From Pseudomonas sp. MYb60 (lineage in GTDB: Bacteria > Pseudomonadota > Gammaproteobacteria > Pseudomonadales > Pseudomonadaceae): 64,000 nt of DNA. The notes beneath the pieces were generated by a model. That model was given only the letters and a program-made list of their open reading frames with translations. It made no database searches and had not been told where the DNA came from. The stretch's first letter is position 1, and each line of letters starts with the position of its first letter. The stretch lies in assembly GCF_002979555.1 (NCBI RefSeq), contig NZ_PCOZ01000002.1, positions 310,001-374,000 of the forward strand. The letters are read 5' to 3'. The translations under genes and the position numbers were made by a program. Of the stretch, positions 41,127 to 43,986 are shown in pieces.

Positions 41127-41507
41127 ATGACCAAGACCGTTATCACCAGCGACAAGGCCCCGGCCGCCATCGGCACCTACTCCCAGGCCATCAAGGCGGG
41201 CAATACCGTCTACATGTCCGGCCAGATCCCGCTGGACCCGAAGACCATGGAGCTGGTGGAAGGCTTCGAAGCCCAGACCGTCCAGGTCTTCGAGAACCTC
41301 AAGTCGGTGGCCGAAGCGGCTGGCGGTTCCTTCAAGGACATCGTCAAGCTGAACATCTTCCTGACCGACTTGAGCCACTTCGCCAAGGTCAACGAGATCA
41401 TGGGCAAGTACTTCGAACAGCCGTACCCAGCCCGCGCCGCCATCGGCGTTGCCGCCCTGCCAAAGGGCGCGCAGGTTGAAATGGACGCGATCCTGGTCAT
41501 CGAGTAA
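41127..41507 (+). CDS. ridA: RidA family reactive intermediate deaminase
   Basis: A 126-residue RidA (YjgF/YER057c/UK114) protein. It has the family signature [27 protein letters not shown], with the conserved arginine that binds the substrate carboxylate, and [25 protein letters not shown]. It hydrolyses toxic enamine/imine intermediates of PLP enzymes. It follows spoT by 24 bases with AAGGAG ahead of the ATG. A strong G+C-rich hairpin follows. Confidence 0.95.
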
Positions 41508-41513
41508 AACACC

Positions 41514-41550
41514 CGGCGCAGCCTCCCCCAGGCTGCGCCGACTTTGTTTC
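41514..41550 (+). terminator. Terminator after ridA
   Basis: A perfect 11-bp stem CGGCGCAGCCT/AGGCTGCGCCG with a CCCCC loop, followed by a weak T-rich tail ACTTTGTTT. Confidence 0.75.
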
Positions 41551-41564
41551 AGAAGGATTTCGTC

Positions 41565-42308
41565 ATGCGCAAAGCGCTCCTGGCCACATCATTGCTCACC
41601 CTGCTGCTCGGCGGCTGCGCCAGCAACCCCGCGGACCTGGATGTGAGCGGCACCTGGATCAACCAGGTCGCCATCGATGCGGCTGCCAAAGGCGGCCCTT
41701 TGCGTGAAGCCCTGCAAAGCTTCGGCCCGACCCTCGAATGGGAGGTCAACACCAAAGCTGCGCAGGCGCGCTACTACAACGGCTTTGAAGTCGCAGAAGG
41801 CAAGCTGCTCGGCGAAAAATCCGGCGCCTGGAGCGTGGACTTCTACGGCAGCTCCGCCACCGAACTCAAGCGCAAAGGCAAGCAACTACAGCAAGTGGCC
41901 AACGACAATGAGCCTGAGCAACTGTTCGCCCGTCCCAAAGAGCCCGCACCGGACGGCGCGCCCTTGGGCGCCAACTTCGAGCGTGCGCTGTATGCCGCCT
42001 ATATGGGCGGTGACTGGAAAATCCTCGACGGCTTCGGCAGCGGCGCCATCGTCCAATTCCAGGCCAACGGCAAAGTGGCCGGCCTGCCCAATGTTGATCA
42101 GTACTCGCTATGCCTGGCGGGCGATTGCGCGTCCATGAGCGGTGGCTATGACAGCATCTGGCTGCAGCTGAATGGCCAGGGCAACCCCTGGATTTTCGTC
42201 CGCAAGGACAAGCAACTGGAAATCTTCCAGGCCGTGAACACCGCACAGGCGGACGAGGTACCCCAGTTCACCCCCGGCCCCCGCCAATGGCTGCTGGAAA
42301 AACAGTGA
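41565..42308 (+). CDS. Lipoprotein of unknown function, first copy of a tandem pair
   Basis: A 247-residue protein with a lipoprotein signal (MRKALLATSLLTLLLGGCAS, lipobox LGGC), so it is probably envelope-anchored. I do not recognise a named domain. Repeated motifs shared with the downstream copy are SGTWINQVAIDAAAKGGPL, LEWEV, CLAGDCAS and a C-terminal block from WIFVRK to the stop. Those last 40 codons are almost identical in the two copies at DNA level, whereas the rest is only moderately similar (see findings). AGAAGGA precedes the ATG at 41565. A terminator separates it from the second copy. It may bind a ligand or sense the envelope, but nothing shows this. Confidence 0.85.
   Translation: MRKALLATSLLTLLLGGCASNPADLDVSGTWINQVAIDAAAKGGPLREALQSFGPTLEWEVNTKAAQARYYNGFEVAEGKLLGEKSGAWSVDFYGSSATELKRKGKQLQQVANDNEPEQLFARPKEPAPDGAPLGANFERALYAAYMGGDWKILDGFGSGAIVQFQANGKVAGLPNVDQYSLCLAGDCASMSGGYDSIWLQLNGQGNPWIFVRKDKQLEIFQAVNTAQADEVPQFTPGPRQWLLEKQ
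42187..42306 (+). repeat. 3' homology block, copy A
   Basis: 120 bases covering the last 40 codons of the first tandem gene, identical to 42978-43097 at 115 positions. The differences are four synonymous or conservative changes plus one Asp-to-Gly codon. Confidence 0.9.
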
Positions 42309-42316
42309 TACAGAAC

Positions 42317-42344
42317 AAAGGAGCCGAAAGGCTCCTTTTTCTTT
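42317..42344 (+). terminator. Terminator between the tandem copies
   Basis: A perfect nine-pair stem AAAGGAGCC/GGCTCCTTT with a GAAA tetraloop and a T-rich tail, directly after the first copy. The second copy therefore probably has its own promoter or depends on read-through. Confidence 0.92.
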
Positions 42345-42382
42345 AGCCTGCGCGTGGTTGGAAACTGCCTCAGGACAGCCTC

Positions 42383-43099
42383 ATGCTCAAACTGCTCGCC
42401 CTCGGATTATCGTTACTGATTAGCCACGCCCAGGCAGCCCCCGATATCAACGGTATCTGGGTCAACCGAGCCTTGATCGATGCCGCGGCTCAAGGCGGCC
42501 CATTGAATACCGCAGGCGCGCACCTCGAATGGGAGATCGACACCCGCAACGCCATGGCGCGCGTCAGCAATGGCTTCGAAACCGGCGAAGGCCAGTTGCG
42601 GCAGACCAGCCCCGATACCTGGACCGTCGATTACGACGGCCACAGCATCAACACGCTGCGCCTGGAAGGCGAGCAACTGATTCAACTGGCCCAGGCGCAT
42701 ACCCCCCAACAGACATTTCATCGGCCGATCGAAGTGCCCACCGCGGGAGCGAAATGGGGGAGCACCTTCCGAAAAGCCCTGAACACGGCCTATCTGGGCG
42801 GCCAGTGGCGCATTACGCAGGGCCCAGGCACAGGTGATGCCCTCGTTTTCACAGCGGATGGGCGCGTTTCAGGGCTGCCTGACACCGTCAGCTATGAACT
42901 CTGCCTCGACGGTGACTGCGCCTCCCAAGGGGCAGGCCATGACACGATGTATCTGAGCACTGAAGCCCAAGGTGATACCTGGATTTTCGTCCGCAAGGGC
43001 AAGCAGCTGGAAATCTTCCAGGCCGTGAACACCGCACAGGCGGACGAGGTGCCTCAGCTCACCCCCGGCCCCCGCCAATGGCTGCTGGAAAAACAGTAA
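42383..43099 (+). CDS. Secreted protein of unknown function, second copy of a tandem pair
   Basis: A 238-residue paralogue of the preceding lipoprotein. It has an ordinary signal peptide, MLKLLALGLSLLISHAQA, cleaved near Ala18, and no lipobox, so it should be soluble and periplasmic rather than membrane-anchored. Shared motifs are GIWVNRALIDAAAQGGPL, LEWEI, NGFETGEGQL and CLDGDCASQ. The last 40 codons repeat those of the first copy with five DNA differences in 120 bases. The start follows a weak site; CTCATG sits 38 bases after the terminator. No known domain is recognised. The convergent epimerase-like gene ends 32 bases downstream. Confidence 0.85.
   Translation: MLKLLALGLSLLISHAQAAPDINGIWVNRALIDAAAQGGPLNTAGAHLEWEIDTRNAMARVSNGFETGEGQLRQTSPDTWTVDYDGHSINTLRLEGEQLIQLAQAHTPQQTFHRPIEVPTAGAKWGSTFRKALNTAYLGGQWRITQGPGTGDALVFTADGRVSGLPDTVSYELCLDGDCASQGAGHDTMYLSTEAQGDTWIFVRKGKQLEIFQAVNTAQADEVPQLTPGPRQWLLEKQ
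42978..43097 (+). repeat. 3' homology block, copy B
   Basis: 120 bases covering the last 40 codons of the second tandem gene; partner of 42187-42306. The identity drops sharply just upstream of this block. Confidence 0.9.
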
Positions 43100-43131: not shown

Positions 43132-43986
43132 TCAGCCTTTGAGTATTGCCGCGTAACCTTCACGGTAGGTCGGGTAGGTCGGCGTCCACCCCAGCGCCTT
43201 GGCTCGCGCGTTGCTGCACTGCTTACTCCCCGCACGCCGCACGCTGGCGTCATCCGCCCACTCGGTCACACCCAGATACTCCCGCAACCAGCCCACCACC
43301 TCGGCCAGCGGCGCCGGCGCATCGTCGACGCCGATGTAAACCTTGTCCAGCGAACCGCCCTTCTCCACATGGTGCAGCAAAAACGCCAGCAACCCGGCGG
43401 CATCTTCCGCGTGAATACGGTTGCCATATAAAGGAGGGTCGATGGCCACGCGATAGCCTTGCCGCACCTGGGTCAGCAGCCATTCGCGACCCGGGCCATA
43501 AATGCCGGTCAACCGCACCACACTGGCGGGAATGCCGCTGTTGAGCGCGACCTGCTCGGCTTCCAGCATCACCTGCCCGGAATACCCCAGGGCCTGGGTG
43601 TCGGATGTTTCGTCGACCCATTCACCATTCTGCTGCCCATACACACTGCTGCTGGAGACAAACAGCAGGTGTTTCGGTGCCTGGCCGTAGTCATCCAGCC
43701 ACTCCAGCACATGTTTCAAACCTTCAACGTAAGCGGCGCGATACCCGGCCTCATCGTGGTCCGTCGCAGCCGCGCAGTACACCAGGTAATCCACCCCGCC
43801 AATCGGCCAGGTGTCCGGGCACTCCTTGTTGAAGAGGTCTCCGGCAATGCCAATCACGCCTTCGGGAAGGCGCGAAACATCACGCCGCAGGCCGTGAACC
43901 TCCCATTCCGAGGCAAGCAATTGCCTAGCCAACCGACTACCCACGTCACCGCATCCGGCAATCACAACAGAAGGCGCAGACATCAC
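43132..43986 (-). CDS. NAD-dependent epimerase/dehydratase-like protein (YeeZ family)
   Basis: A 284-residue extended SDR-fold protein. The N-terminal nucleotide-binding region is VVIAGCGDVGSRLARQLLASEW, with a short-chain-type LLFVSSSSVYGQQ and VRLTGIYGPGREWLL; the usual YxxxK catalytic pair is replaced by a YSGQVMLEAE segment, so catalysis is uncertain. It resembles YeeZ, an atypical SDR protein of unknown role. The start has CGGAG seven bases upstream. It is divergent from exbB. Confidence 0.87.
   Translation of the reverse strand: MMSAPSVVIAGCGDVGSRLARQLLASEWEVHGLRRDVSRLPEGVIGIAGDLFNKECPDTWPIGGVDYLVYCAAATDHDEAGYRAAYVEGLKHVLEWLDDYGQAPKHLLFVSSSSVYGQQNGEWVDETSDTQALGYSGQVMLEAEQVALNSGIPASVVRLTGIYGPGREWLLTQVRQGYRVAIDPPLYGNRIHAEDAAGLLAFLLHHVEKGGSLDKVYIGVDDAPAPLAEVVGWLREYLGVTEWADDASVRRAGSKQCSNARAKALGWTPTYPTYREGYAAILKG

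Follow-up and report, generated by a model that had tools for sequence, protein, structure and literature searches.

We found that two adjacent, strongly diverged paralogous genes of Pseudomonas sp. MYb60 share nearly identical 3' ends, very probably as the result of a lineage-specific, short-tract gene conversion that copied mainly the end of the upstream gene (gene A) into the downstream gene (gene B) of an old tandem pair. Both genes lie in the 64,000-nucleotide stretch of DNA analysed here (the window), whose coordinates are used throughout. Gene A (41565-42308, + strand), an open reading frame of a family found genus-wide in Pseudomonas, encodes a 247-aa lipoprotein with the lipobox LGGC; its start at 41565 follows the choice made in an earlier note on this DNA and the family alignment. 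Gene B (42383-43099, + strand) encodes a 238-aa paralogue, the signal peptide of which lacks a lipobox in this strain. The two proteins are 53% identical, and the earlier note had called the genes tandem paralogues.

The pair sits between two synteny markers, which we take to be a ridA-like gene upstream (41127-41507, + strand; named from sequence and gene order) and a NAD-dependent epimerase/SDR-like gene downstream (43132-43986, - strand). From translations and gene order, the upstream neighbours are presumably gmk-, rpoZ-, spoT- and ridA-like genes, and the downstream ones the minus-strand epimerase-like gene followed by exbB/exbD/tonB-like and oxyR-like genes; the loci named in a scan of genome contigs, and the genus-wide matches, agree with these names. 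The spacer between the genes (42309-42382, + strand) contains a hairpin resembling an intrinsic terminator (42317-42338, + strand), and another such hairpin follows the ridA-like gene (41514-41540), both being consensus matches only.

The 3' ends of the pair agree at silent sites

The earlier note had reported 115 of 120 bases alike before the stop codons (42187-42306 versus 42978-43097), and our recount gave exactly this figure. Aligned in frame, the last 40 codons of A and B have 114 of 120 bases in common and encode the same amino acid at 37 of 40 positions; the remaining 198 aligned codons share 332 of 594 bases (56%) and 92 of 198 amino acids. Of the codons informative for silent change, 32 of 35 agree in the last 40 and 43 of 87 in the rest (Fisher P 9e-6). 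High similarity is therefore limited to the 3' end and extends there to silent third positions, both as the note had claimed. A permutation for an equally good silent segment anywhere in the window pair gave P = 0.0007 (10,000 shuffles), or about 0.014 after correction for the 20 pairs on which it was run.

The homogenised block comprises the last 39 codons of each gene, from TGG to CAG (42189-42305 in A and 42980-43096 in B, both + strand), in which 112 of 117 bases are the same and 5 of 39 codons differ (7, 9, 24, 25 and 27). Its edges are abrupt: directly after the final sense codon the stops already differ (TGA versus TAA), as do the four codons before the TGG at 42189 and 42980. The pair thus has one of the features by which conversion is recognised, a local, sharply bounded block of high identity that includes silent sites.

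Homogenisation is confined to two of 20 tandem pairs

Of 399 genomes sampled from the window's genus, 388 have a match to the gene A family, as do 288 of 298 in an overlapping draw, whereas a search of 144 relatives found it in 1 of 49 genera, the window's own; a single scan of genome contigs found one relative. At least 20 of the 399 genomes carry gene B in tandem with A. Two matches occurred in 26 of 399, of which 20 were analysed as tandem pairs, leaving out G196 and G273, in which B is unlinked, as well as G010, G376, G508 and G520. The B-type genes of G196 and G273 (L016, 1501-2229, - strand; L008, 1501-2226, - strand) had no ridA, A, spoT or epimerase gene that we could find nearby. The comparison is across species, with one genome per species, and the single-copy loci are best search matches to B rather than a random sample.

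Among the 20 tandem pairs, homogenisation is confined to the window genome and G017, whose A and B agree at 109 of 120 bases in the last 40 codons. The other 18 pairs agree at 75 to 92 of 120 (83 of 117 in G486), or 62-77% of bases. Gene A of G486 (L089, 677-1414) has a TAG one codon early and so lacks the last residue, a position that is likewise a gap in nine other A-type genes. In G476, the window's nearest sampled tandem relative, only 89 of 120 bases and 13 of 30 silent codons are alike, which places the window event after the split from G476. Ongoing concerted evolution, under which most two-copy lineages would be homogenised, does not describe a family in which 18 of 20 pairs are not.

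For G017, the best silent segment gave P = 0.016, which is lost on correction for 20 pairs. The silent identity of its block (28 of 36) lies within the range of A-B pairs taken from different genomes, but its base identity (108 of 117) exceeds that of all such pairs (maximum 103 of 117). Three genomes (G046, G476 and G505) had silent segments elsewhere in the gene at nominal P < 0.05, none of which survives correction.

Gene bodies group by copy and two 3' blocks by genome

Trees of the two parts of the genes conflict. In the tree of the upstream part, the 20 B genes fall together in a single clade (support 100/100) with branches longer than those of A, and A genes from tandem genomes are interspersed with single-copy A genes. 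In the tree of the last 39 codons, by contrast, A and B are sisters in the window (96/84) and in G017 (98/85), and a clade of 16 other B blocks has support of 100/98; the B blocks of G476 and G486 fall among A-type blocks without a resolved place, neither with its own A. In a subset of 18 sequences, the upstream part rejects A and B as sisters for both the window (p-AU 4e-51) and G017 (p-AU 3e-58).

Because the block is short, its trees are weak. With 57 sequences, a topology uniting all B blocks in one clade is not rejected (p-AU 0.066); with the subset of 18, which we chose ourselves, it is (p-AU 0.00026), at 88/89 and 92/91 for the sister pairs, which is lower support. Grouping of the copies by genome in the 3' block and by copy in the rest, which the earlier note had expected of conversion, is accordingly seen, across species, for the window and G017 (2 of 20 tandem pairs), where a block of 117 bases gives it modest support, and does not extend to the other 18.

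The tract probably runs mainly from A into B

The donor is marked by nine codons of B's block, 16-24 (VNTAQADEV; 43025-43051, + strand; counterpart in A 42234-42260). Codons 16, 18-21, 23 and 24 are A-type; no more than 4 of 20 other B genes share any one of them, and GTG16, GAG23 and GTG24 occur in none of the 20; codons 17 and 22 are uninformative on direction. Since these diagnostic codons of the window's B are rare or absent in other B genes, A is indicated as the donor. With 103 of 117 bases alike, the A gene of another species (L020) also resembles the window's B block more than the nearest B does (that of G476, 99 of 117). At codon 27, B keeps CTC, a codon common among B genes but rare among A genes, which means that the tract is either patchy or has diverged since. 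Three early codons of the window's A (ATT TTC GTC) are found more often in B than in A genes, so that the direction may have been mixed. The opposite direction, B into A, was first suggested by a comparison of the window's A with that of G476 (92 of 117 bases in the block, 574 of 624 in the body); we dropped it, as A tails of single-copy species vary equally and the diagnostic codons point to A as the source.

Similar traces occur in relatives. In B of G476, an A-like VNTAQ is followed by a B-like PDEIPQL, which suggests an older, shorter A-into-B patch that predates the split of G476 from the window. In G017, an A-type stretch is followed by GTA AAA CAA TAG, which is unlike its own A and in which GTA is of the B lineage, so that the stretch is bounded downstream and the tract is internal.

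On this evidence, the end of one gene (about 120 bp) would have been copied over the other after the split from G476, by homologous recombination without exchange of flanks. The tract would start at conserved WIF codons common to A and B and end at the stop codon, where homology stops. A second, independent A-into-B tract would account for G017. We infer an exchange between the two copies inside one cell, for which either RecA-type recombination or switching of the replication template between repeats 791 bp apart may have been the molecular route.

The 3' block as a likely joint for gain or loss of B

The end of A is linked to the presence of B. Spacers after tandem A genes begin alike, and a degenerate motif spanning A's end and the spacer, scored at up to two mismatches, matches 19 of 399 genomes, all of them tandem, and 0 of 379 others; the tandem genome that it misses, G283, has a changed spacer. 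The stop codon TGA is found in 19 of 20 tandem A genes, 11 of 20 tandem B genes and 10 of 52 single-copy A genes. The single-copy genome G405 has a decayed A-type spacer, missed by the motif, past the 3' end of its gene (L074, 1004-1744, - strand), perhaps a relic of a lost B.

In the A genes of 14 tandem and 25 single-copy genomes, 228 codon columns vary, and each was scored for association with the presence of B; the genomes were picked by similarity to the window's A and do not include six tandem ones (G108 and the G137 group). The best markers were the stop and block codons 38, 39, 30 and 33 (z 10.2 to 4.7; codon 39 consists partly of gaps), compared with a mean z of 0.44 and a maximum of 4.6 for codons of the body, a comparison that is the only control for relatedness. 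Block codons 35 and 37 showed no association with tandem status. A further comparison is that of G017, which is tandem, with G247, which is single-copy (L025): their A bodies agree at 588 of 624 bases, the flank after B of G017 and the flank after A of G247 at 149 of 150, and the last three codons are the same.

Because the motif coincides with tandem B and tandem status tracks A's end and not its body, A's last codons, the stop, the spacer and B seem to form one unit of presence or absence, with its joint inside the 3' block. The block itself looks like a recombination joint for the gain or loss of B, which is likely though not proven. Deletion of B between the blocks would fit, as would insertion by way of the same homology. 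Shallow groups are shared by the A and B trees, yet neither tree accepts the topology of the other and their deep parts disagree, so that gain of B by transfer and its loss look the same in them. This deep conflict and the unlinked B genes of G196 and G273 suggest some horizontal movement of B. Tails of single-copy genes did not simply match B tails: codons 36 and 38 are mostly CTG and AAA in B, and CTT and AAG in most single-copy genomes of the association test. Ser/Gln at block codon 26 had been considered as a record of A::B fusion and was dropped, since Gln also occurs there in single-copy members of the outer clade.

One reading draws these observations together, and we find it about as easy to believe as to doubt. 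A's last ten or so codons, the spacer and the body of B would form a cassette between direct repeats, gained and lost by homologous recombination in the coding end; single-copy genomes would be left with another A tail and stop, and the conversion in the window would be one outcome.

The same observations could instead mean that the window's block is a junction effect, in which a single A already resident and an incoming pair recombined through their 3' blocks, so that a unit of A tail, spacer and B was inserted or rearranged and B's present tail is the resident A's former one. The coincidence of spacer motif and tandem B, the tracking of tandem status by A's stop and last ten codons, the shared flank and last codons of G017 and G247, and the deep disagreement of the trees would all be expected from it. 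However, the two window tails are more alike (112 of 117 bases) than the window's A tail is to any other sampled A tail (maximum 102 of 117), so the resident would need to have been very close to the donor, and the A-type stretch of G017 followed by B-type codons requires conversion anyway. We therefore regard a junction effect as rather unlikely, and conversion between the two copies as the better account of the block.

Silent constraint and partial duplication

Selection on codon choice, or on an RNA or DNA element, could in principle keep the block alike throughout the gene family, and the amino acids of the C-terminus are indeed conserved in both copies. Among orthologues, however, the block is without silent constraint. 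Over 2,552 A-A orthologue pairs, which are not independent of one another (4 of 2,556 were dropped for having few informative codons), silent identity was lower in the block than in the body in every bin from 0.5 up, with the largest gap in a bin of 475 pairs (0.58 versus 0.73); only in the lowest bin, of 6 pairs, was the block higher (0.64 versus 0.48). In 1,564 A-B pairs from different genomes, the silent identity of the block averaged 0.52 and reached at most 0.84, compared with 0.914 for the window's own pair. With silent sites of the block mostly less conserved than elsewhere among A orthologues, and with block identity as low as it is in 18 of 20 tandem pairs, we consider such selection highly improbable, and the earlier note's view that selection on protein alone does not explain the silent identity stands. 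The lower silent identity of the block between close A orthologues is also what would be expected if tails were often exchanged.

The note had left the choice between gene conversion and partial duplication, in which B's 3' end would be a fresh copy of A's made as the gene was born; the restriction of high identity to the 3' end would suit duplication, but it is hardly credible because B is an old, full-length clade whose members in other tandem genomes have their own diverged 3' ends, which leaves conversion. Constraint and partial duplication were both rejected on the upstream and block trees and the orthologue control of silent identity.

Predicted localisation and fold

The two proteins differ in predicted localisation, as the earlier note had said, with a lipobox in A and none in B; this is not a trait of the pair but private to this strain's B, as the lipobox cysteine is present in 39 of 40 aligned sequences and missing only here (signal peptide region 42383-42439, + strand; extent judged by eye). 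Judging from its signal peptide, this B is probably set free in the periplasm.

The family reached the cut-off of no Pfam or NCBIfam model, and no significant sequence match was found in the PDB. A confident model of A (mean pLDDT 90.7) has two small, beta-rich domains. Residues 22-127 gave Z values of up to 7.8 with the retinol- and fatty-acid-binding barrels CRBP/FABP, 7.3 with TP0435 and 6.0 with NlpE, and residues 142-247 a best Z of 8.1 with potempin E; such values may reflect only a common arrangement, and a lipocalin-like lipoprotein of two barrels, built in the manner of NlpE, is a candidate description of A. A Foldseek search with the model found no match at E 0.001 or better, and its top rows, sliding clamps, were disregarded for TM-scores below 0.2. 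In the model, the 3' block covers the final two long strands together with a portion of the strand before them. Most likely, A acts in the envelope as a lipoprotein binding either a small ligand or a partner protein, and B is a faster-evolving accessory copy.

Discussion

Gene conversion as a process is already known in bacteria, and its intragenomic form was reportedly treated by Santoyo and Romero in 2005. The case described here resembles bacterial intragenomic conversion in general, being a non-reciprocal short tract between homologous copies of one genome, and differs from it in nothing fundamental, although the copies are strongly diverged outside the tract. In Helicobacter pylori, the 3' segments of homA/homB and babA/babB, paralogous genes for outer-membrane proteins, evolve in concert and group by strain while the first segments diverge, from which conversion was inferred (PMC2795765). 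The bab and hom genes are thus likewise paralogue pairs in which a 3' segment is homogenised while the rest diverges; they were compared among strains of one species, whereas we find the pattern in 2 of 20 species pairs, and A and B differ from them in being adjacent and without known variation function. A shallow search of the literature on conversion of tandem paralogues in Pseudomonas, conversion of bacterial paralogues and loss of paralogues by recombination found no paper on A and B, although such papers may exist.

PA5340 of Pseudomonas aeruginosa is, by gene order, presumably the orthologue of gene A. PA5340 is described as a hypothetical protein and candidate vaccine antigen, and is called exclusive to P. 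aeruginosa (PMC6334337). The description as exclusive contrasts with a gene A family present in 388 of 399 genomes of the genus.

The pair offers a clear case of conversion between strongly diverged bacterial paralogues, which can be set beside a sister genome in which it is absent, a second case that arose independently and 18 pairs that lack it. The part worth following is the coupling of the conversion block to the presence or absence of B. If the cassette reading is true, one short coding end both keeps the paralogues partly alike and decides the coming and going of one of them, and whole-gene trees or dS scans of the family would mislead. If, in addition, PA5340 belongs to the family, a candidate antigen would be part of a genus-wide family that recombines at its C-terminus.
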